Below are positions 726 to 49,671 of a stretch of DNA of 50,014 nucleotides, piece after piece. The first letter of the stretch is position 1. Every line of letters begins with the position of its first letter. The translations under genes were made by a program, and so were the position numbers. Under the pieces are notes generated by a model that searched no databases, was not told the DNA's origin, and saw only the letters and a program-made list of their open reading frames with translations. Source of the stretch: a virus. The DNA lies in IMG/VR virus record IMGVR_UViG_3300036801_000108, positions 1 to 50,014 of that record. One strand, written 5' to 3'.

Positions 726-841
726 TCGCGTTGAAGTTCTCGCGATTGCTAAGTGGGAAGTCCCTAGAAAAACAACACTGGGAAGACGTGGTCGGCTACG
801 CTCAGCTTGCGCTTAACCAATGCGTTGTTGAGGCCAAATGA
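503..841 (+). CDS. DUF6378-domain protein
   Basis: The 112-residue protein matches the DUF6378 pattern from residue 28 on: LLADRGSTHGSFENNARVSQ, then a helix with REAMDMIALKFSRLLSG and the ending WEDVVGYAQLAL. This family is common in phages of proteobacteria; its biochemical role is not known to me. A longer frame starts at 377, but residues before this ATG are unlike the family and a GAAGG lies 8-10 nt upstream of ATG 503. Its stop overlaps the next start (ATGA at 838). Confidence 0.75.
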   Translation: MPDSEVHEAAADHAQPMGEPARPADASQALLADRGSTHGSFENNARVSQYIKRAFRNESGWHGLTDVEREAMDMIALKFSRLLSGKSLEKQHWEDVVGYAQLALNQCVVEAK

Positions 842-1935
842 CAAAGATTATAGTGCTGGGTGAGGCCTGGGGCGAAGCCGAAGCCCGCATCTCCCAAGGC
901 TTCTGTGGACCTAGCGGAATCGAACTATTAAGGATGCTACATGAAGCAAGAATCATCGAACTCACTCGAGTTGATCGAAACTACATCTCTGACTATTACC
1001 GGCGGGGGGACCCAAAGTCTATTGACTCTATTTGGCGGCTTCACGAAGAGGTCTTTCGCACGAACGTGTTCAATATACATCCGCCCGGGAACCGCCTCGA
1101 ATGGTTCTGCGGTGCTAAAGGTGAGGGTATACAATCCTACCCCACCCTCATCAAATCCGGCTACGTCCGTCGCGAGTTCGAGCCGGAGTTGGATCGGCTT
1201 GGTGAAGAGATTCTCTATCATGATCCTAATCTCATTATCTGTCTCGGAAACACTGCTCTTTGGGCTCTCGCAGGTCGGACTGGAGTTAGCAAACTTCGGG
1301 GTACTACAAGCACTAGCAGTCATTGCGTTAGCGGTTATAAGCTCCTTAGCACTTATCACCCTGCTGCTGTCCTCCGCGAATGGTCCCACCGACCCACCGT
1401 CATCTTCGACCTGATCAAAGCCGCGCGCGAAGCCGAGTTCCCGGAAGTCCGCCGCCCGGCATGTGAAATCTGGATCGAGCCAACTTTGGAGGATATCGAT
1501 GTCTTTACCCGCACCTACATCCAAGGCTGTCGACTCCTTTCTGTGGACATTGAAACGTCTGGAACGCGAATCACATGTCTTGGCATGGCTCCATCAACAG
1601 ACCGAGCCATCGTTGTTCCATTTGATGACGAACGAACAAAGAGCGGATGCTATTGGCCAACTGCGAGTGACGAGAGGCTTGCTTGGGCTGCGATTAAACG
1701 AACTCTTGTCGATCCTGGAATCCTCAAGCTGTTCCAAAATGGCGTCTATGACATCGCCTTCCTCTGGCGAGCATATGGAATCGGAGTAATGGGAGCGGTG
1801 CATGATACCATGCTGGCGCAGCATTCGTTGCAGCCAGAATCATTGAAGGGCCTTGGATATCTCGGCTCCATCTATACCGATCATGGTGCTTGGAAAAGCG
1901 AACGGAAGATGCCGACGATTGGGAGAGACAAATAG
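838..1935 (+). CDS. UDG-like domain plus 3'-5' exonuclease domain of a family A DNA polymerase (front half)
   Basis: Residues 1-200 form a uracil-DNA-glycosylase-superfamily domain: LGEAWGEAEARISQGFCGPS at the start corresponds to the family 4 GEAPG motif, and YHPAAVLR near residue 173 corresponds to the HPS/HPA motif. From about residue 230 a DnaQ-like proofreading exonuclease follows, with ExoI (SVDIETSG) and ExoII (FQNGVYDIAFL). The frame stops at TAG 1933-1935 before the third exonuclease motif, which is encoded in the same frame directly after the stop. The two frames together make a normal UDG-exonuclease-polymerase of 868 codons. The glycosylase could be catalytic or structural. Translation is coupled to the upstream gene by ATGA. 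Confidence 0.85.
   Translation: MTKIIVLGEAWGEAEARISQGFCGPSGIELLRMLHEARIIELTRVDRNYISDYYRRGDPKSIDSIWRLHEEVFRTNVFNIHPPGNRLEWFCGAKGEGIQSYPTLIKSGYVRREFEPELDRLGEEILYHDPNLIICLGNTALWALAGRTGVSKLRGTTSTSSHCVSGYKLLSTYHPAAVLREWSHRPTVIFDLIKAAREAEFPEVRRPACEIWIEPTLEDIDVFTRTYIQGCRLLSVDIETSGTRITCLGMAPSTDRAIVVPFDDERTKSGCYWPTASDERLAWAAIKRTLVDPGILKLFQNGVYDIAFLWRAYGIGVMGAVHDTMLAQHSLQPESLKGLGYLGSIYTDHGAWKSERKMPTIGRDK
1933..1935 (+). other. In-frame amber codon splitting the polymerase
   Basis: TAG separates two frames that are in register (838 and 1936) and falls between ExoII and ExoIII of a single exonuclease fold. The next codon is ATG with GGGAGAG 9-10 nt upstream, so re-initiation is possible. TAG serves as an ordinary stop for at least eight other genes here, so global recoding is ruled out. 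Confidence 0.9.
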
Positions 1936-3444
1936 ATGGCCCGCATAATTCGCACAGATCAGTCGAAGCCAGATGATTTTATAAATCAGTGGGAAAGGGA
2001 TCAAATTTATAATGGATTGGATGTATGCATCACCGCCGAATGCCTAGCCGCTCAGCTTCCACAATTCGACACCACCACCCGTGAGACCTATCACTTCTCC
2101 CTCGCGCTCCAAGCACCAGCCCTCGAAATGCGCCTGCGCGGTGTCCGGATCGACCAACAGCGCAAGGCCGAGGTTATCGATGACTTCTACGACAAAATCG
2201 AACGCCTCGAACGCAACCTCGAACGCATTGTCCTCGAAGGCGTGGGGATGTCCGGCTTCAACCCCCGCTCCAACGCCGATCTCCAGGACCTATTCTACAA
2301 CCGCCTTGGCATTCCCGTCATCCGCAAACAAGGACGCCCCACCGTTGACCGCAACGCGCTTGAGAAGATGGAATCCTACACTGTCGCCCGGCCGATTGTC
2401 TCGCACCTGTCCGCGATCCGGGAGCTATCCAAGAAGATTTCGGTACTCAAGACTGAGATCGACCCGGATGGACGAATTCGTACTAGCTACAACATCGCAG
2501 GAACTGACACCGGGCGGTTTAGTTCTAGTTTCTCAGAATTCGGGACTGGTGGCAATCTCCAGAACATTGAAGAAAACCTTCGATCGATCTTTGTGGCCGA
2601 TCCCGGAATGAAATGGGCCAAGTGCGACGCCAAGTCTGGCGAATCCTTCGTCGTTGGCGCTTTGGAATGGAACCTGTTTGATGACCCACGATATTTGGAA
2701 GCATGCGAATCCGGCGATCCTCATACCGCTGTTGCTCGAATCTGTTGGCCACAACTTGCATGGACCGGTAACCTTAAGCGAGATAAAAATCTCGCAGAGT
2801 CACCCTACTACCGACACTACACGTATCGTTTTATGTGCAAGAAGCTCGGACATGGAAGCAACTATGGTGGTAAAGCTGCGACCTTGTCGGCGCAAAGCAA
2901 GCTCCCAATCGAAACGGTCCAAGCCTTCCAGCCCCTCTACTTCCAAGCCTTCCCCGCGCACCTGCTCTGGCAGCAATGGGTCCCGCAACAACTCGCGACC
3001 AAGGGCTACCTAACCTCGCTCGGCGGCCGCAAGCGCTGGTTCTGGGGCAGGAGGACCGAACCGGACACCATCCGCGCGGCCCTCGCGTTCGATCCACAGG
3101 AAACCCTGGCCAAGGTCGTGAACCGGGCCATGCTGCATATCTGGCGCCAGAATTACTGCACCGTTATGCTCCACGACCACGACGCCCTCACCTTCCAATA
3201 CCCCGCACACCTCGAAGACGAAATCATCCCCCGCCTCATGCGTGATCTGATCCAACCTATCCAACTCAAAAACGGACGAATGTTAGCAATCCCATATGAC
3301 TGCAAGGTCGGCTGGAATAAAGGGGAATATGATGCACGATCGAACCCGGATGGGCTCCGCGATTACGAAGCCGGGGACCAAGGGCGCAAGCGGCAGCCGG
3401 AAGTTGGGGTCTTGGATCGAGTCGTTCGTAGAGCATACCGATAA
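1936..3444 (+). CDS. Family A DNA polymerase, polymerase half
   Basis: This frame carries the missing ExoIII motif at its start (YNGLDVCITAE, Y25 and D29), then thumb and palm regions. Motif A is KCDAKSGES (Asp about residue 231), motif B is CKKLGHGSNYGG (about 301-312) and motif C is MLHDHDALTF (about 411-420). HDH replaces the usual HDE of bacterial Pol I; a variant motif C is not rare in phages. The protein replicates the phage genome. The first 60 residues only make sense as a continuation of the preceding exonuclease, so the native product is either a readthrough fusion or a two-chain enzyme. The last 115 nt overlap the next gene in another frame. Confidence 0.9.
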   Translation: MARIIRTDQSKPDDFINQWERDQIYNGLDVCITAECLAAQLPQFDTTTRETYHFSLALQAPALEMRLRGVRIDQQRKAEVIDDFYDKIERLERNLERIVLEGVGMSGFNPRSNADLQDLFYNRLGIPVIRKQGRPTVDRNALEKMESYTVARPIVSHLSAIRELSKKISVLKTEIDPDGRIRTSYNIAGTDTGRFSSSFSEFGTGGNLQNIEENLRSIFVADPGMKWAKCDAKSGESFVVGALEWNLFDDPRYLEACESGDPHTAVARICWPQLAWTGNLKRDKNLAESPYYRHYTYRFMCKKLGHGSNYGGKAATLSAQSKLPIETVQAFQPLYFQAFPAHLLWQQWVPQQLATKGYLTSLGGRKRWFWGRRTEPDTIRAALAFDPQETLAKVVNRAMLHIWRQNYCTVMLHDHDALTFQYPAHLEDEIIPRLMRDLIQPIQLKNGRMLAIPYDCKVGWNKGEYDARSNPDGLRDYEAGDQGRKRQPEVGVLDRVVRRAYR

Positions 3445-4567
3445 TTTGGAGTCCCCAACGCTGTTCCGCAAATGGGCTGCGATCTTCACCATCGCAGCGG
3501 CTATGGAGATGAAGTGTTGGCTTCAAACATCCAGCCCGCTTTATCCTAACCTCTATGTCTTTATCGTGGGCCACCCAGGCGTAGGAAAGAATCGGATCAT
3601 CCGCGTGGCGAAGCGATATATGGGAGAGATTCATGAGTTTCACTTTGCACCGACTTCGCTTACTGGAGCGTCCTTGGTGGACACTCTCGCTGCTAGTAAA
3701 CGATTCATCGCTCGCTTACCAGACCCACCGCTTGAATATTTTAACACTACCATCACCGCAGAAGAGCTTACTGCTTTCATGCACAAGTATGACGACGAGA
3801 TGGTGGGGCTACTCAGCGCGTTCTACGACCCAGACCCTTACGCTCAATCGCGACGAGGTCGAGATATTAAGATCAAGATCGATCGCCCACAAGTCAACCT
3901 GATCTCCGGCACCACCCCCAGCAATCTAATCGGTCTTATGCCCGAGTCCGCATGGGATCAAGGCTTTACCTCCCGCGTTATCTTAGTACACTCGGACGAA
4001 CGGATCGTTGGCGATGACTTTGCCGGGACCTCGCGCGAGATGGATACCTCGCTGGTTAATGATATCAAAATGATAGGAGCGTTAAGTGGGGAGTTCAAGG
4101 TCACCGAAGACTATCGTAATGCGGTTAACAATTGGCGGGCGCTGGGTGAGCCCCCTGTCGTCAACCATCCAAAGCTTCTACACTATAAAACGCGAAGGCG
4201 CGTACACTTGTATAAGCTTTCAATGGTTTCGGCTGCGGACCGAAGTGACGTACTTCTCCTCACGAAGGAGGATTTCAATCGGGCTATGGGTTGGCTACTC
4301 GAAGCCGAATGCTTTATGCCTGATATTTTCACCGCAGGCAGTACAGGAACGGATGCTCGCGCGATCGACGAAATCGCCCACTTCATCAGCGTGAGCGATA
4401 AGGGCGAAGGCGTTCCCGAGAACCGAATCGTGAACTTTGCCCGAGCCCGAGTGCCGATGCATTCGATCCTGCGCGTGATCGATATCATGGTGGCGAGTGG
4501 GCAGATTAGCAGCCGAGGCATCGACAAGCACGGGCTGCGATGGTTCCGTGCTGTGCGTCGGGATTAA
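3329..4567 (+). CDS. P-loop ATPase, DUF3987/primase-helicase-like
   Basis: The 412-residue protein has a Walker A motif GHPGVGKN at about residues 81-88, an acidic Walker B-like ITAEEL segment near 145, and the IDRPQVNLISGTTPSNL stretch typical of DUF3987/VirE-like replication ATPases that act as phage replicative helicases. It follows the polymerase, which supports a replication role. The longer frame starts at 3296, but AAAGGGG directly before ATG 3329/3332 favours the shorter start. The stop TAA shares the palindrome TTAA with the convergent gene on the other strand. Confidence 0.75.
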   Translation: MMHDRTRMGSAITKPGTKGASGSRKLGSWIESFVEHTDNLESPTLFRKWAAIFTIAAAMEMKCWLQTSSPLYPNLYVFIVGHPGVGKNRIIRVAKRYMGEIHEFHFAPTSLTGASLVDTLAASKRFIARLPDPPLEYFNTTITAEELTAFMHKYDDEMVGLLSAFYDPDPYAQSRRGRDIKIKIDRPQVNLISGTTPSNLIGLMPESAWDQGFTSRVILVHSDERIVGDDFAGTSREMDTSLVNDIKMIGALSGEFKVTEDYRNAVNNWRALGEPPVVNHPKLLHYKTRRRVHLYKLSMVSAADRSDVLLLTKEDFNRAMGWLLEAECFMPDIFTAGSTGTDARAIDEIAHFISVSDKGEGVPENRIVNFARARVPMHSILRVIDIMVASGQISSRGIDKHGLRWFRAVRRD

Positions 4568-37136: not shown

Positions 37137-37549
37137 GTGTGATGTTCCCTTAGCGGTTTGCAATGATGGCGGGTTTGCCAACAACGCCACAATGGACGCA
37201 TTCGGCTCGATTGTCCAATCACGAAATGTTACAACCACGCCGCACCGCACCATCCCGCCATAATCCTTGGTACCCCTCTGATACCCCTCTGATCCTCTCA
37301 TTCACCCACCCACACTGCCCGGTGGCCCTGCACTCGTGCTTGCTTTGCGAAAAAAAAAATTTGAAGAGATAGACACTAGCAAGGCCCTAACCCTACCGCC
37401 ACGGGGTGTGGGGAGCTGAATGAGAGGGTGAGGGGGGGATGAGAGGGGTATCAGGGATTATGGGCGTGGGATTGGGGAGCGATTGTGCTTGCTTTGTTCA
37501 CGGTTTGGTGGTATACTGTGATGGTAAGCTGGAGAGAGGGAGGATGCCG
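37137..37549. promoter_or_regulatory. Divergent control region with long inverted repeat
   Basis: The 413 nt between the two blocks contain no convincing gene. An imperfect inverted repeat pairs 37252-37316 with 37404-37470: read outward from the centre, each arm shows GTGTGGG, TGAATGAGAGG, AGAGGGGTATCA and GGATTATGG in the same order. Between the arms are a run of ten A followed by TTT (37350-37362) and a copy of TGCTTGCTTTG that recurs at the rightward -35 box. Features fit a divergent operator and possibly a replication origin; this is inference. Confidence 0.7.
37489..37517 (+). promoter_or_regulatory. Early promoter P1 (sigma-70 type)
   Basis: TTGCTT, 17 nt, TATACT. It drives the first early gene at 37550. 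The sequence GGTGG before and ATGGTAAG after the -10 box resembles three further early promoters. Confidence 0.75.
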
Positions 37550-37804
37550 ATGGCCAAGCTGAACAATCGACCGATGGTGTTGCGTTTGCAACGGCTGAGC
37601 GATGGACGCGAGCCGAATGCTGGCACGTTCGTGGATGATTTCACAGGCGAGGTGCTGCCGAGTGCTGTGCCGTTGGAGCCGGCCAAGGAGTTGGCATCAG
37701 GCTTGGAGCTTGCTGCCGATCGATCACGCGCGAAGGCTGCCGCGCAGCGTGCACTCCTTGATCGCGCAATGGCAGAGCCCAAGCCATTCGTGCGGCGGGT
37801 GTGA
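37550..37804 (+). CDS. Small early protein ending in RRV
   Basis: The 84-residue first early product is hydrophilic and helical (ASGLELAADRSRAKAAAQRA) and ends AEPKPFVRRV, close to the RRL tail of other proteins here. GGGAGG lies 6 nt before ATG 37550; ATG 37544 is too close to it. Function unknown. Confidence 0.65.
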   Translation: MAKLNNRPMVLRLQRLSDGREPNAGTFVDDFTGEVLPSAVPLEPAKELASGLELAADRSRAKAAAQRALLDRAMAEPKPFVRRV

Positions 37805-37959
37805 TGCAGAGCCCTCGGCAACAAATGAACGAAGTTTCGATTGATGCGGCGCAACAAATGAATTCACAATTCCGTGATCGATGTTCGCAGTTCGTTCCGG
37901 GTTCGTTCGCAACGGTTCGCTTGCAATGCTGCGGTGCGGTGTGCAATAATGGGCGGTGA
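37804..37959 (+). CDS. Possible 51-residue coupled peptide
   Basis: The ATG overlaps the preceding stop (TGATG). The product contains QQMN twice and ends with three cysteines (LQCCGAVC). It also spans five GTTCG repeats and a promoter, so the DNA may be regulatory rather than coding. Confidence 0.35.
   Translation: MQSPRQQMNEVSIDAAQQMNSQFRDRCSQFVPGSFATVRLQCCGAVCNNGR
37921..37949 (+). promoter_or_regulatory. Early promoter P2 (weaker)
   Basis: TTGCAA, 17 nt, CAATAA, preceded by five GTTCG units in 37883-37919. The GGTGTG before and ATGGG after the -10 region match the other early promoters. It would feed the gene at 37978. Confidence 0.5.
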
Positions 37960-38199: not shown

Positions 38200-38214
38200 C
38201 AGAAGGTGATGGTG

Positions 38215-38418
38215 ATGAAACTCCCAAAGGGACTGACTGTGGACACAGTAATTGACGCAGCCAAGCGTCAGATGTTCGGCTTGGACAATCCGGGCTTCTG
38301 TCTTGCTTGTGGCTATGAACAGGATGGTTGTGAGCCCGATGCTATGGGTTATGAATGTGAGGAATGCGGTGAGCCTAAGGTTATGGGTGCTGCCGAATTG
38401 GCTATGTGTCTTGCCTAA
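38215..38418 (+). CDS. Small zinc-binding-like protein
   Basis: A 67-residue protein with cysteine pairs CLAC and CEEC plus an extra Cys (GFCLACGYEQDGCEPDAMGY), as in a short zinc ribbon. GAAGG 8 nt upstream favours ATG 38215; GTG/ATG codons from 38206 are alternatives. Confidence 0.6.
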   Translation: MKLPKGLTVDTVIDAAKRQMFGLDNPGFCLACGYEQDGCEPDAMGYECEECGEPKVMGAAELAMCLA

Positions 38419-38426
38419 AGGTCGAA

Positions 38427-38683
38427 ACCCAAGGCTAATCCCTTGGGTCTGCCAGTGATGCTGGTACTGATGATGACCACTAGGCCGCCCACCTCAACGG
38501 CCTAGCGTGGGCTATCTCCCACGGGCTGTTTGAAACGATGTAAGACTATGGGATTGTATCGGCGGAGGCAGAGTGCTAGTTCGCTCCTAGCATTGCCGCT
38601 ATAGTGTGGAGCGTGCACTATAGATAGGCTAAAGTGATTGGCTAAGAACCAGTTGCTGTGTCTGCCTCCACCCGTGCAATCCC
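38427..38683 (+). ncRNA. Candidate structured non-coding RNA
   Basis: No convincing gene lies in 38419-38898. Hairpins follow one another: ACCCAAGG with CCTTGGGT (38427-38448), CTAGGCCG with CGGCCTAG (38480-38505), CGTGGG with CCCACG (38506-38523). A long-range stem then joins 38550-38572 to 38661-38683: GGGATTG with CAATCCC, CGG with CCG, and GGAGGCAGA with TCTGCCTCC, 19 bp with two small internal loops. Inside it are TGCTAG with CTAGCA (38574-38592) and CTATAGTG with CACTATAG (38599-38623). It could be a stand-alone RNA or the leader of the gene at 38899. It matches no RNA class I know, including tRNA. Confidence 0.65.
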
Positions 38684-38898
38684 GCACGACCAATATGCCA
38701 CGATCCAAGACCGATGGGGCCTAGGGGCTCTGCCCTTGCCAACGCAATGGTAGCGACTGCCGCGAAGCGTTCACGCCTAGCAATAGTCCAAAGACCACTG
38801 CCGAAGCTCGGCCAACCCTTGCGACCGCCATAACCATCAGTGACTACCTTGGCATATACCCCGGTGGCAATCCCGCCACCACAAAGAGGACTGTAGTT
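38684..38898 (+). other. Leader region with further hairpins
   Basis: No gene seen. A nested hairpin pairs AACGC with GCGTT around GGTAG-CGA-CTGCC near 38739-38771, and GGTGGC-AATCCC-GCCACC lies at 38863-38880, ending 19 nt before the start at 38899. The latter is close enough to the ribosome site (AAAGAGG) to affect initiation. Confidence 0.55.
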
Positions 38899-39585
38899 AT
38901 GACAGACCTAGCGACTGATGTTGCGGCCGACGCCGCGGTACCCTCCACTGACATCACCTTTGCCCTTAAAAACGGCGCAGGCGAGTTCACGGTCAATACC
39001 TTACGGCTCCCAATCGACGTATACCGCGAAGCCCTCATGCAGGGCCTCAAGGCCATCGCCGAACGCAACATGAGCAAGCTTACCAAAGCTGCATTCCCCG
39101 AGGACAACGCTGACGGCACCAAGCGCAAAGCCGCTATCCGTGCCAAGGCCGAGGCCAACATCGAGGACATGTACTCCGGTAAGACCAAGATCACCGGCCA
39201 GTCTAAGGCCAAAAAGGCCGGTGGGAATAAGGAAGTGGTCGCCGAAGCCATGCGGCTGGCGCGAAACCTCGTCAAGGACGCAATCAAAGCGGCCAAGGGC
39301 AAGATTTCGCACTACAAGGCTTCGGAAATCACCGAGGGCGCCAAGCAGCTTATCGCTGCCGATCCCTCGATCTTGGAGACAGCCAAGGCCAATCTCGAAG
39401 CGCGGGCAGCGACCCCGGTGAAGCTCAACGTCATGAGCGTCATCAAGGCCGATCCCAAGCTGGTGGCCGAGGACGAAGCCAAGAAGGCCAAGGCCAAGGC
39501 GGACAAGCCCCTTAGCGCAAAGCAGGCCGGTAAGGTCGCGCCGAGGGCAAAGGGCTCGAAGCCGCAGCCGCAGGCTAACGCCTAA
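38899..39585 (+). CDS. Lysine/alanine-rich basic protein, unknown
   Basis: A 228-residue protein. Residues 1-50 look globular (DITFALKNGAGEFTVNTLRL); from about residue 60 it is rich in Lys and Ala, and the last 45 residues (DEAKKAKAKADKPLSAKQAG and on) resemble the tails of histone H1-like bacterial proteins. It may bind DNA or RNA. AAAGAGG is well placed. It is the only gene after the structured RNA region and before a hairpin at 39775, which suggests a self-contained unit. No family recognised. Confidence 0.6.
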   Translation: MTDLATDVAADAAVPSTDITFALKNGAGEFTVNTLRLPIDVYREALMQGLKAIAERNMSKLTKAAFPEDNADGTKRKAAIRAKAEANIEDMYSGKTKITGQSKAKKAGGNKEVVAEAMRLARNLVKDAIKAAKGKISHYKASEITEGAKQLIAADPSILETAKANLEARAATPVKLNVMSVIKADPKLVAEDEAKKAKAKADKPLSAKQAGKVAPRAKGSKPQPQANA

Positions 39586-44845: not shown

Positions 44846-45078
44846 CCGAACCCTTCTCCACCATCGGCGGAATCGCCACCAAAGACGAAGCCTACCGCAA
44901 ACTAATGCACCACATTGAAGAAGCCATCAACCAATGCCTCGCCATCGGCCATTTCTACAACACCGAAGACGACAACACCTCGCGCCTGATCGCCAAGGGC
45001 TGGTACGGGATCGGCAACGAATTGCTGCCAAGGTTCAAGGAACAGGTTCGGCAACTCGCAATGAGGAGGGCGAATTGA
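44842..45078 (+). CDS. Small helical early protein
   Basis: A 78-residue protein (DEAYRKLMHHIEEAINQCLA, WYGIGNELLPRFKEQVRQLA). Its last codons carry the GGAGG ribosome site of the helicase gene, whose TTG start overlaps its TGA. Not recognised. Confidence 0.6.
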   Translation: MTEPFSTIGGIATKDEAYRKLMHHIEEAINQCLAIGHFYNTEDDNTSRLIAKGWYGIGNELLPRFKEQVRQLAMRRAN

Positions 45079-46505
45079 CCCCAACCCCCGAACAATTCGC
45101 CATCCTCGATCACTGCACTACCAAGGACCATCCCAACCTCATGATCAACGCCTTAGCAGGCACAGGCAAATCCGCAACGCTCAAGCTAATCGATCAAGTC
45201 CATCGAACCAAGCCCGCGCTCTATCTCGTATTCAACAAACGTAACCAACTCGAAGCCATTGAGGCCCAAAAGGCCGGCGACTTCGCCTCAACCACCACGA
45301 TCAAAACCTTCAACTCCCTCGGGCACGGCATCTGGGCCAAGGCCATTGCCCACGATATCCACCTCGACAAGTCCAAATCCCGAACCCTCTGGCGCGAGAT
45401 GATCGACGAGATGTCCCGCGCCGATGCCAATGCCGCGTGGAAGGAATATTCCGTGGTGATGGATGGAATGGAGAAGGCTAAGGCCTTAGGCTATGTGCCT
45501 AAGTCGGTCAAGCTTCCACACCAATCCCTAATCGATCACACCGCGCTCCACCACGCAATGGATGAAAGGCCTAACGAATATGCCGGAGAACTCATTGATC
45601 AACTGCTCAAGGCCTCGATCACCAAGGCTTACTCCGGCCTTATTGATTTCAACGATCAGATTTACATGCCCGCATTGTTTGGAGGAACATTCCCAAAGTT
45701 TCCCCGCGTCATGGTTGACGAGTACCAAGATCAATCGCCGGTTAACCATGCGCTGCTCCAACGTCTCGTCAAAGGTCGTCTTATTGGAGTTGGCGATCCA
45801 TATCAAAACATCTATGGCTTCCGCGGGGCCAAGTCGGGAGGGATGTCCTCGGCAATCGACACTTACTCCATGACCCAACTCCCACTCTCCATATCCTTCC
45901 GCTGCCCATCCGCCATCGTCGAAGCAGCCCGCTGGCGCGTCCCCCACTTCCAATGGTCCAAACGCGGAGGCAATGTCAGTGTGGCCAACACCTACAACGG
46001 TTGCGATTTCCCTGACGATAGCACTATTATCTGTCGCAACAATGCACCATTGCTTCGATTGGCCTTTAAGCTTATCTCAGCAGGTCGCTCTGTTAGCGTT
46101 GTCGGTAGCGAACTTGGTCCTCGTCTGGTCGCTATCATGAAGAAACTCGGCGATGCCACTATGCCGCGCGCGCGCTTGTTCACCGAAATCGAATCATGGC
46201 GCGAGGCCCGCCTAATCGCGGGCTCCAAATCCGCCAACGACCTCGCCGACTGCATGCGGGTCTTCGCTGAACACGGCGACACTCTATCCTCTGCCATTTC
46301 CTACGCCGAACACATCTTCGCTCAATCCGGCACCATTCGCCTGCTCACCGGACACAAGGCCAAGGGGCTAGAATTCGAAAACGTCTTCTGGCTCGATCGG
46401 CGCCTGTGCGGTGACAACGAGCAAGACCTTAATCTCCAATACGTCATCACCACCCGCAGCCAACATTCGCTCACCGAGCTTGACTCCTCTAGCATAGTGT
46501 GGTAA
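45075..46505 (+). CDS. SF1 (UvrD/PcrA-like) helicase
   Basis: The 476-residue helicase has motif I INALAGTGKSAT (about 24-35), motif II VMVDEYQDQSPV, motif III GDPYQNIYGFRGA, and a motif VI-region LLTGHKAKGLEFENVFWLD with VITTRSQH. It unwinds DNA with 3'-5' polarity in the UvrD family. GAGGAGGG lies 4 nt before TTG 45075; the long frame to 44934 is shadow. It precedes a nuclease and recombinase, so it may act in recombination-dependent replication. It is short for UvrD and lacks much of the 2B domain. Confidence 0.9.
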   Translation: MTPTPEQFAILDHCTTKDHPNLMINALAGTGKSATLKLIDQVHRTKPALYLVFNKRNQLEAIEAQKAGDFASTTTIKTFNSLGHGIWAKAIAHDIHLDKSKSRTLWREMIDEMSRADANAAWKEYSVVMDGMEKAKALGYVPKSVKLPHQSLIDHTALHHAMDERPNEYAGELIDQLLKASITKAYSGLIDFNDQIYMPALFGGTFPKFPRVMVDEYQDQSPVNHALLQRLVKGRLIGVGDPYQNIYGFRGAKSGGMSSAIDTYSMTQLPLSISFRCPSAIVEAARWRVPHFQWSKRGGNVSVANTYNGCDFPDDSTIICRNNAPLLRLAFKLISAGRSVSVVGSELGPRLVAIMKKLGDATMPRARLFTEIESWREARLIAGSKSANDLADCMRVFAEHGDTLSSAISYAEHIFAQSGTIRLLTGHKAKGLEFENVFWLDRRLCGDNEQDLNLQYVITTRSQHSLTELDSSSIVW

Positions 46506-47390: not shown

Positions 47391-47686
47391 CCAACCCCCT
47401 CCTCGACTCCCTCGCCAAACCTCCGCCCCCACCTTCCGAACTCGACGAGCTAATCTCCCGTGACCCACTCGACCTATCGGCCCAGGACATCGACTCCATC
47501 ATCGCCATGCAGCGCCAGCATCGCGCACGCAAAGAAGCCGGTGGCCGCACCCGCAAGTCCGCTGCCGATGCACCGAAGCAGACCCTCGATCTCGCCGCGC
47601 TGGGCCTGCTCAAGCCCAAGCCCGCGCCTGCAATCGCCGCACCGGGCACGGTTCCGGCTGTGGTGTCTAGCTTTAGGCGCCTATGA
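47387..47686 (+). CDS. Small early protein ending in RRL
   Basis: A 99-residue protein: proline stretch, acidic helix (DLSAQDIDSIIAMQRQHRAR), a basic linker and a proline/alanine-rich tail ending VVSSFRRL. It directly precedes the Cas4-like nuclease with ATGA overlap. Not recognised; an adaptor role through the tail is a guess. Confidence 0.6.
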   Translation: MTNPLLDSLAKPPPPPSELDELISRDPLDLSAQDIDSIIAMQRQHRARKEAGGRTRKSAADAPKQTLDLAALGLLKPKPAPAIAAPGTVPAVVSSFRRL

Positions 47687-48684
47687 TGAACATCCACCCC
47701 GCCCACCTCACCGAAGGCACACAGTCCCCATTCCTCCCGGGCACCAAAATCCAGTACGCTTGGGACTCCACCTCGCTAGGCTATCTCAAAACCTGTCCCC
47801 GACTCTACCAATACATCCTAATCGACGGCTGGGGTTCCCGCGACGAATCCATCCACCTTCGCTTCGGCATCGAATACCATACCGCCCTCGAAGACTACGC
47901 CCGATCCCGCGCTCAAGGCATCTCCCATGACGACTCTATCCATGACACTATCCGCGCTCTTCATTCTCGGGTGTGGGATTGGCGCCCTGATCGGTCGAGT
48001 CGCGCTGGGCGTTACAAGAATCCAGAAACACTCATTGGACTAGTTGTGGATTATCTGGACCACTTCCATGATGACCCGGCAGAGACGTTCATCTTGGAGA
48101 ACGGGTCCCCGGCGGTGGAGCTGAGCTTTAGGTTCGAGCTTGATTGGGGTCCTGAGCGCAGCATGAGTGATGGCTATGGTGCCCCTCCACACAACCAACC
48201 CTACCTCCTCTGCGGCCATCTCGACCGGGTCGTAGACTTCAACAACGATCTCTACGTCATGGACCGGAAGACCTCCGTGAGTACGCTAAGCGGCTACTAC
48301 TTTGATCAATGGACCCCCAGCAACCAAATGACCCTCTACACCCTCGCCGGCAAGGTCATGCTCAACTCGCCAATCAAAGGCGTGATTATCGACGCGGCCC
48401 AAGTCTTGCTCGAAAAGCCCAACGCCTTCGCCCGCGGCTTTGCCTACCGCACTGCCGATCAACTCGACGAATGGCTGCTCGATCTGCGCTATTGGTTAGG
48501 CCAAGCCGAGGCATTCGCCACTGCCGACTACTGGCCCCAGAACGACACCGCCTGCCACAAGTTCGGCGGGTGCCAATTCCGCGAGGTGTGTTCGCGAAGC
48601 CCACAGGTGCGGGAGCAATACCTCAAAGGCAGCTTCGACAAACTGGCACCGGAGGATCGATGGAATCCGCTCAAAGCTCGCTAA
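47683..48684 (+). CDS. Cas4/RecB-like PD-(D/E)XK nuclease with Fe-S cysteines
   Basis: The 333-residue protein has the RecB-type nuclease core: FGIEYHTALE (His66), GHLDRVVDF (Asp181), YVMDRKTS (Asp194, Lys196) and the QMTLY motif (Gln215). One cysteine near the start (TCPRLYQY, C38) and three near the end (C291, C297, C303) match the four ligands of an iron-sulphur cluster in Cas4/AddB. It would resect double-strand ends or cleave flaps for recombination with the adjacent Sak4-like ATPase. Confidence 0.88.
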   Translation: MMNIHPAHLTEGTQSPFLPGTKIQYAWDSTSLGYLKTCPRLYQYILIDGWGSRDESIHLRFGIEYHTALEDYARSRAQGISHDDSIHDTIRALHSRVWDWRPDRSSRAGRYKNPETLIGLVVDYLDHFHDDPAETFILENGSPAVELSFRFELDWGPERSMSDGYGAPPHNQPYLLCGHLDRVVDFNNDLYVMDRKTSVSTLSGYYFDQWTPSNQMTLYTLAGKVMLNSPIKGVIIDAAQVLLEKPNAFARGFAYRTADQLDEWLLDLRYWLGQAEAFATADYWPQNDTACHKFGGCQFREVCSRSPQVREQYLKGSFDKLAPEDRWNPLKAR

Positions 48685-48872
48685 GAGCCCGCCTAATCCT
48701 CGGCAAGTTCCGGGTCCTCGAACGATCCGAAGCCGAAATGAAAGTCGCCCTCGGTGGCTCCACCACCATGACCGTCCGGCTCGAACCATTTATGGATGTG
48801 AAGGCTGGAGATTTGATCACGCTATACACGGAGGTGTTCCTTGCCAAGCCTAGCCAATCATCAGTCGAATGA
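48660..48872 (+). CDS. Small protein between nuclease and Sak4-like ATPase
   Basis: A 70-residue beta-rich protein (ARLILGKFRVLERSEAEMKV, TMTVRLEPFMDVKAGDLITL). GGAGG 4 nt before ATG 48660. It overlaps the nuclease gene by 25 nt and the next by 32 nt. Function unknown. Confidence 0.6.
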   Translation: MESAQSSLRARLILGKFRVLERSEAEMKVALGGSTTMTVRLEPFMDVKAGDLITLYTEVFLAKPSQSSVE

Positions 48873-49671
48873 CTTTACGAAGCTGCTTCTTACCGGAGAT
48901 TCTGGCTCTGGCAAGTCCGGAGCGCTCGCTTCGCTTGTCAAAGCTGGCTACAAGCTGCGAATCCTTGATATGGACAATGGACTTGATCCCCTCAAAACCT
49001 ATGTCCTCAAAGAGTGCCCTGCTCTTGTCGACAATGTTGAATTCAGAACATTACGTGATAACTACAAGACTACTGCTGCGGGGCCTAAGGTGGACAAGCC
49101 CACTGCCTTCGTCGCCGCGATGAAAATGATGGACCACTGGAAATACGACGATACCGATCTTGGCAAGCCCGGCGACTGGGGACCCGAGTGCATCCTCGTC
49201 CTTGACTCCCTCTCCTTCTTCTCCGATGCCGCATTCGACTGGGCCGAGTCCATGAATCCTGGTGCCAAGGACCCAAGGCAATGGTTCTACAGCGCACAGC
49301 AAGCGGTGGAGGCTGCCCTTGCCCTCCTCACCTCGGCCAGCTTTCGCACTAACGTCATCGTCACCGCCCACGTCCGCTACTCCACCGGTGACGACGGCCG
49401 TACCAAAGGCTACCCTAACGCAATCGGCTCAGCCCTAGGCCCCACCATCCCCCGCTACTTCAACCATTGGGCCCAATGCGAGAACAAGTCCGGCAAGCGC
49501 ACCATCCAAACCGCCGCCACCGCGATGTTTGACCTCAAAAACACCAAGCCGTTTGAAATGTCCAAGACCTACGACCTTGCCACCGGTCTTGCTGAATTCT
49601 TTGCCGTGTTACGAGAGCCACCGGCAACGATTCCGACTAAACCCAAGGCTCTCACTCTCAAGCGTGCATAA
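48841..49671 (+). CDS. Sak4-like RecA-family ATPase
   Basis: The 276-residue protein has Walker A GDSGSGKS (19-26), ILDMDNGLDPL and Walker B CILVLDSLSFF (117-127), then NVIVTAHVRY, the order of the AAA_24/Sak4 phage recombinases. These act in single-strand annealing with an SSB partner, here the next gene. It starts with TTG; GGAGGT lies 5-6 nt upstream. Confidence 0.88.
   Translation: MPSLANHQSNDFTKLLLTGDSGSGKSGALASLVKAGYKLRILDMDNGLDPLKTYVLKECPALVDNVEFRTLRDNYKTTAAGPKVDKPTAFVAAMKMMDHWKYDDTDLGKPGDWGPECILVLDSLSFFSDAAFDWAESMNPGAKDPRQWFYSAQQAVEAALALLTSASFRTNVIVTAHVRYSTGDDGRTKGYPNAIGSALGPTIPRYFNHWAQCENKSGKRTIQTAATAMFDLKNTKPFEMSKTYDLATGLAEFFAVLREPPATIPTKPKALTLKRA

Follow-up and report, generated by a model that had tools for sequence, protein, structure and literature searches.

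What is encoded in the 480 nt (38419-38898) that precede the first conserved gene of a phage replication operon? We addressed this question for the virus record IMGVR_UViG_3300036801_000108, a sequence of 50,014 bases which, over its whole length, is called the window here. The original prediction had described the region as highly structured and non-coding, and as a candidate new phage RNA that is either stable and expressed early or the leader of the protein starting at 38899. The record is probably a near-complete genome, since relatives often measure 48.8-50.6 kb. No DNA similarity of the window to cultured phages was found. Among the annotated genes, those for head, tail and packaging (major head protein, portal-like adaptor, terminase) lie on the - strand and the replication genes on the + strand. 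The following genes are referred to below.

838-3444, + strand, DNA polymerase
3296-4567, + strand, primase
38206-38418, + strand, 70-aa ORF with its stop codon directly 5' of the ribozyme (like layout in L170, L172, L176 and L202)
38899-39585, + strand, 228-aa K-rich protein; the replication operon's first conserved gene, which follows each of the RNA copies found
44934-46505, + strand, helicase
47683-48684, + strand, exonuclease
48841-49671, + strand, Sak4-like protein

The 228-aa gene stands at the head of the + strand operon, with the helicase, exonuclease, Sak4-like, DNA polymerase and primase genes downstream; its conservation extends to every relative in the comparison. Its protein gave no match to PHROG or Pfam and no fold match in a fold search, and no relative of the gene was found among 50,697 phage records. 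The DNA polymerase is seemingly split, with adjacent ORFs at 838-1935 and 1936-3444 that match consecutive parts of PHROG profile phrog_17.

Folding of 38419-38898 provided an MFE of -187.6 kcal/mol compared to -159.2 ± 5.6 kcal/mol for dinucleotide shuffles (z = -5.07, none of 100 as good), i.e. a gain of 28 kcal/mol over shuffled sequence. The - strand folds similarly (z = -4.64), such that the strand must be decided by comparison. No + strand ORF of at least 40 aa was found between 38459 and 38898 and no tRNA in the region, as had been expected. Likewise, no known riboswitch or phage RNA was recognised: no Rfam family reaches its cut-off over the region, and the only credible lead of a permissive Rfam scan was Hammerhead_II.

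From 5' to 3' the RNA consists of an optional hammerhead, variable hairpins, a UGUUUGA segment, P1 with stem X, hairpin H1, and P2 enclosing P3a, P3b, a YGAY bulge and P3c, the latter carrying a variable tip. P2/P3 is sometimes followed by a second AAUCCY hairpin, and then by the ribosome-binding site and the start codon. The core thus combines a hairpin, whose AAUCCY loop is invariant, with a long bulged stem. In the window the elements are located as follows.

37921-37950, + strand, promoter-like TTGCAA-18-AATAAT (weak), located 5' of the small ORFs; consensus match only
38420-38478, + strand, type II hammerhead ribozyme (first 59 nt); permissive Rfam scan, homologous ribozymes in L170, L172, L176 and L202
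38480-38505, + strand, hairpin CUAGGCCG...CGGCCUAG, sequence not conserved
38506-38523, + strand, hairpin CGUGGG/CCCACG; a similar one at the equivalent place in L169, L172 and L202
38523-38536, + strand, conserved segment GGGCUGUUUGAAAC, which reads UGUUUGAMA in most relatives of the main clade
38550-38572, + strand, P1 5' arm (GGGAUUGUAU) and stem X; covariation
38573-38660, + strand, variable stem X insert with hairpins 38572-38594 and 38599-38623
38661-38683, + strand, stem X and P1 3' arm; covariation
38673-38688, + strand, hairpin H1, CGUGC-AAUCCC-GCACG; stem covaries, loop kept
38693-38700, + strand, P2 5' strand AUAUGCCA; own-partner duplex test
38713-38717, + strand, P3a 5' strand GAUGG; own-partner duplex test
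38718-38727, + strand, P3b (GGCC) and P3c (UAGGGG) 5' strands; covariation
38816-38829, + strand, P3c 3' strand CCCUUG, conserved YGAY bulge (CGAC) and P3b 3' strand CGCC; covariation
38834-38838, + strand, P3a 3' strand CCAUC; own-partner duplex test
38850-38857, + strand, P2 3' strand UGGCAUAU; own-partner duplex test
38863-38880, + strand, hairpin H4, GGUGGC-AAUCCC-GCCACC, just 5' of the ribosome-binding site; AAUCCY hairpin search
38884-38889, + strand, probable ribosome-binding site AAGAGG; sequence

The long-range stem, noticed before as 19 bp with two small internal loops, turned out to be exact and conserved: GGGATTGTATCGGCGGAGGCAGA (38550-38572) pairs with TCTGCCTCCACCCGTGCAATCCC (38661-38683) as 10 bp, a 1x1 loop, 2 bp, a 1x1 loop and 9 bp. 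Both hairpins described inside it were confirmed. Two of the upstream hairpins belong to the hammerhead and are joined by those at 38480-38505 and 38506-38523, while the downstream ones correspond to H1, which overlaps the 3' arm of the stem, and H4. Overlooked before were the hammerhead at the 5' end, the core reaching past the described stem, and an additional long-range stem at 38693-38857. The stem X insert holds a small ORF in six relatives (L160, L168, L169, L180, L182 and L202).

Relatives were reached via the terminase and from there via the conserved 228-aa gene; a single-sequence search with the 228-aa protein had failed. Aligning this gene yielded first 28 and then 49 viral loci (L170 and L135 are one and the same contig), and homologues of the RNA come from about 25 related uncultivated phages. 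A 21-nt pattern of H1 plus flank matched 19 stretches in 2.9 million viral contigs. Of these, 18 lie on contigs already known for the 228-aa gene. The nineteenth, L202, carries the gene at 54% identity and, in addition to both 3' helices, has P1, a stem X that pairs perfectly and encloses a small ORF, and the fifth of the hammerheads. An 18-nt pattern gave 12 matches in bacterial genomes, about chance level.

For P1/stem X in 19 phages, 95.8% of the cells were paired, and 63 double-change cells were counted compared to 18.5 ± 3.6 after shuffling. Stem X partners swapped in from other phages paired only 51% of the time, and slid-register controls were 32-52% paired; the latter retain the relatedness of the phages, which the shuffle controls do not remove. 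H1, P3b and P3c were 95.7% paired with 48 double-change cells (12.7 ± 2.7 shuffled), and in an untargeted test of all column pairs the P3 pairs took the top five places. H1 is near-invariant in the main clade; in L229, L230, L231 and L233 both sides of its stem change and the AAUCCY loop is retained. For P3a and P2 the duplex energy with the own partner beat that with the partners of other phages (0 of 20000 permutations each). These helices were first spotted by eye and then tested, such that this test is not independent of their discovery. With a covariance model built from the 3' domain, the held-out phages scored 72.3 bits (L202) and 43.6 bits (L180). The model also matched six phages at greater distance, in each case on the + strand and immediately 5' of the gene, with L229, L230, L231 and L251 at 28-42 bits; other, unrelated phage loci with the hammerhead pattern (797 kb) gave no score above 12.5 bits. 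No protein frame common to the homologues runs across the region.

The original prediction would have been refuted by a lack of covariation, by a conserved protein frame or by folding no better than shuffled sequence. None of these was encountered: covariation is strong, a shared frame is missing and the fold clearly exceeds the shuffles. The description as structured, non-coding and a candidate new RNA is therefore upheld. As far as sequence comparison can tell, it is close to certain that the leader region is a conserved RNA. The same comparison establishes its parts, namely a + strand RNA with P1/stem X, H1, and P2-P3a-P3b-P3c with the YGAY bulge, directly 5' of the 228-aa gene. Leader cores of 16 phages had no family match in Rfam 15, and a literature search returned no paper describing the RNA.

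Inverted repeats with invariant letters (GGATTG/CAATCC) close to a replication operon could in principle also mark a DNA-level element, such as an origin, packaging or recombination site, that merely resembles RNA. This idea is already largely refuted and hardly tenable. P3c holds a G-U pair in 14 of 20 phages (GC in the other 6) and P1 a U-G pair in 7 of 19; these conserved pairs would be mismatches in DNA or in a - strand RNA, so that only a + strand RNA fits. Moreover, the long-range helices show compensatory changes, a hammerhead core is present, and the ends of the ~50-kb contigs do not fall at the leader region.

By its sequence, 38420-38478 is a type II hammerhead, with self-cleavage being inferred. 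The Hammerhead_II match of the permissive scan (38420-38485, 23.3 bits; E = 0.021 for the short stretch and 2.1 for the whole window) would on its own be weak evidence. Scores stay below the Rfam gathering value of 37 also in relatives (29.4 bits in L170, 21.8 bits in L202). However, hammerheads with identical core and differing stems occupy the corresponding position in L170, L172, L176 and L202. Every core letter (C3U4G5A6N7G8A9, G12A13A14, A15.1-U16.1, H17) is present in all five copies, the stems vary between the phages by paired (covarying) changes, and the MFE structure is in each case a three-way junction with stems I and III loop-closed and stem II open. In the window the order is stem II (GGUC/GACC), GAAA, stem III, UC, stem I and CUGAUGA, with a predicted cut between 38449 and 38450. 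A descriptor requiring stems of at least 5, 5 and 4 pairs found no match in 2 Mb of random sequence with the same dinucleotide make-up. The window copy contains a single extra U (38474) between A9 and stem II, absent from the four relatives, with which it may be slow. An MFE pairing of 38420-38424 with 38686-38690 is not conserved; comparison prefers the local stem II of the hammerhead. All five hammerheads overlap or directly follow the stop codon of a small ORF. Only a minority of the relatives, five known phages, possess the ribozyme.

Compared to the type II hammerheads of Rfam RF02276 (Perreault 2011, PMC3088659), the full CUGAUGA/GAAA/UH core, the three stems open at stem II and the phage-borne setting are alike, and the halovirus copy likewise lies upstream of an early gene. 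The differences are the additional U that precedes stem II in the window copy, the scores of 22-29 bits and the coupling to a large leader RNA. Separately, a scan of viral contigs for the type II pattern matched at least 120 stretches, among them L004, L007, L011, L024, L049, L051, L058, L062, L066, L067, L069 and L078. Several of these contigs carry two or three motifs ~270-1000 nt apart, as if bracketing a released RNA segment.

The sequence upstream of the RNA has further recurrent features. At the place equivalent to the weak promoter of the window, relatives have TTGACG-N17/18-TATACT. It directly follows a palindrome, TCACGAAAANGTGAT, 480-1200 nt upstream of the gene (L160, L163, L164, L170, L175, L180 and others). 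The palindrome probably serves as the operator for a repressor of the early operon; a weak form of the promoter with its palindrome lies at 37860-37950 in the window. A small gene with an LSDGR...DDFTGE motif (37545-37804 in the window) is the gene before the leader promoter in several relatives. Among the small ORFs, L159, L160, L170, L176 and L178 share a conserved hairpin, CGGGYA...TACCCG, followed by GCTTRAGSCANTAG. A small ORF family (FGRKPxQxLxEF...YFKREFAKxGIEI) lies upstream of the RNA in L163 and L176 and inside stem X (-370 to -214) in L168; its placement shifts relative to the RNA, like that of a mobile small gene.

How is the RNA related to the gene behind it? In all RNA copies H1 precedes the 228-aa gene, 98-251 nt away from its start, and P2 of the window ends 41 nt before the start codon. 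In the pattern search of the 2.9 million viral contigs the RNA was never found away from this gene. No terminator-like site was found between the two. Among distant homologues, L185, L186 and others have the gene but no RNA; in L246 and L247, from a distant clade without leader RNA, a 10-bp hairpin with AAUCCU loop occurs 3' of the 228-aa homologue, ~660 nt after the gene start. Between the roles left open by the original prediction, the homologues favour the leader of the 38899 protein over the stable early RNA. A stable phage RNA acting in trans, of the ROOL/GOLLD sort or as a defence decoy, would have its 5' end freed by the hammerhead and its 3' end by host nucleases. The ornate conserved structure that tolerates inserts in peripheral loops would suit this, as would the ribozyme on the 5' side in five phages. 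We nevertheless regard it as improbable: the 3' side has neither terminator nor second ribozyme, the start codon follows P2 at 41 nt, the RNA keeps to its gene, and most relatives have no ribozyme. ROOL, GOLLD and OLE (PMC12286853) are likewise large ornate RNAs, the former two phage-encoded and with variable linkers. The window RNA has no Rfam match to any of them and differs by its leader position, shorter core and lack of a terminator and of a tRNA island.

The reading we favour, tentatively and with a probability of roughly 0.45, is a cis-acting structured 5' leader of the early replication operon, which is trimmed by the hammerhead in some phages and through whose AAUCCY hairpin(s) the 228-aa protein tunes translation. 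Co-transcription as a 5' leader, trimming by the ribozyme and recognition of the AAUCCY loop are all inferred, as is the mechanism as a whole. The hammerhead would cut the nascent transcript, detach the leader from the small ORFs upstream of it and leave a leader-mRNA that begins with a 5'-OH. Translation of the operon's first gene would then be tuned by a protein that binds, close to the ribosome-binding site, to the AAUCCY hairpin(s) and the P2/P3 fold; the simplest candidate, proposed without binding data, is the K-rich 228-aa product itself. Such autogenous control is favoured because the RNA never occurs away from the 228-aa gene and AAUCCY hairpins occur nowhere else in the record: only two with at least 4 bp exist on either strand of the 50 kb, H1 and H4, both in the leader. 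A second AAUCCY hairpin is also found in L159 and L233. Such control would be lineage-specific, since the RNA is missing beside more distant homologues of the gene. The absence of the RNA there also counts against the favoured reading, together with the minority of relatives that have a hammerhead, the extra U and sub-threshold score of the window copy and the lack of support from experiment or RNA-seq. Furthermore, occlusion of the ribosome-binding site was not seen in the MFE structure, where the site is predicted to be unpaired.

Structured leaders of replication genes have a precedent in the T4 gp32 and gp43 leader operators (PMC3014915). Like these, the window RNA lies just 5' of a replication gene, has a conserved loop and places structure near the ribosome-binding site, with H4 ending 3 nt before AAGAGG. 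The T4 operators are small, whereas the window leader is multi-helix and its binding protein is not identified. In a halovirus a hammerhead lies 13 nt upstream of an early helicase gene, with a transcript end mapped near the cut (PMC3088659).

The loop and 5' strand of H1 double as the P1 3' arm. In L233 an upstream GGGAUU matches the H1 loop exactly, and in the main clade the match runs into the H1 stem; therefore P1 and H1 are alternative or the loop is pseudoknotted. Nearest-neighbour energies prefer P1 over H1 in 21 of 21 phages examined, where a pseudoknot cannot be scored by the model. Within autogenous control, P1 pairing would switch the protein site on or off. A ribozyme-trimmed two-state switch, in which the AAUCCY loop is either presented to a partner or captured by the GGGAUU arm across the cargo-bearing stem while an optional hammerhead removes accessory genes, appears unlikely to us, if not to be dismissed.

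The main rival to autogenous control is an antiterminator resembling the put RNA of phage HK022: the nascent leader would bind the host RNA polymerase and read through terminators of the long early operon, with the hammerhead trimming it without untethering. HK022 put RNAs are ~70 nt long with two stem-loops downstream of early promoters, putR lying ~270 nt from the start site (PMC9378689). The leader studied here is similarly a structured RNA of an early operon, placed between an early promoter (by consensus match only) and the 228-aa gene. The smallest members, L231 and L233, span only ~100-120 nt between H1 and the start codon and are compact two-stem-loop RNAs, and no phage RNA polymerase gene was seen in the proteins scanned. 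However, the window RNA is much larger, no sequence relation to put was seen, polymerase binding is only hypothetical, and an antiterminator would not need to be tied so closely to a single gene and the ribosome-binding site of that gene. We thus consider antitermination possible and rather unlikely.

Finally, structure and ribozyme might just insulate or stabilise the early mRNA without any specific binding partner. Such a passive role would agree with the very stable fold and with a hammerhead located where small accessory ORFs have their stop codon. It is quite doubtful, as the invariant unpaired letters (AAUCCY loop, YGAY bulge, UGUUUGA) amid changing stems suggest a recognised surface.

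The leader RNA has not been described previously, while the hammerhead is of a known kind and no new mechanism is demonstrated. With this finding, a broad group of uncultivated phages gains an early-region RNA family that is backed by covariation and missing from Rfam 15. Its invariant loop on changing stems is a precise bait for a binding partner, and a hammerhead tied to the leader of a replication operon is among the few settings in which the purpose of phage hammerheads can be tested directly. For these phages the leader looks like a built-in control region for early genes, a function that is inferred.
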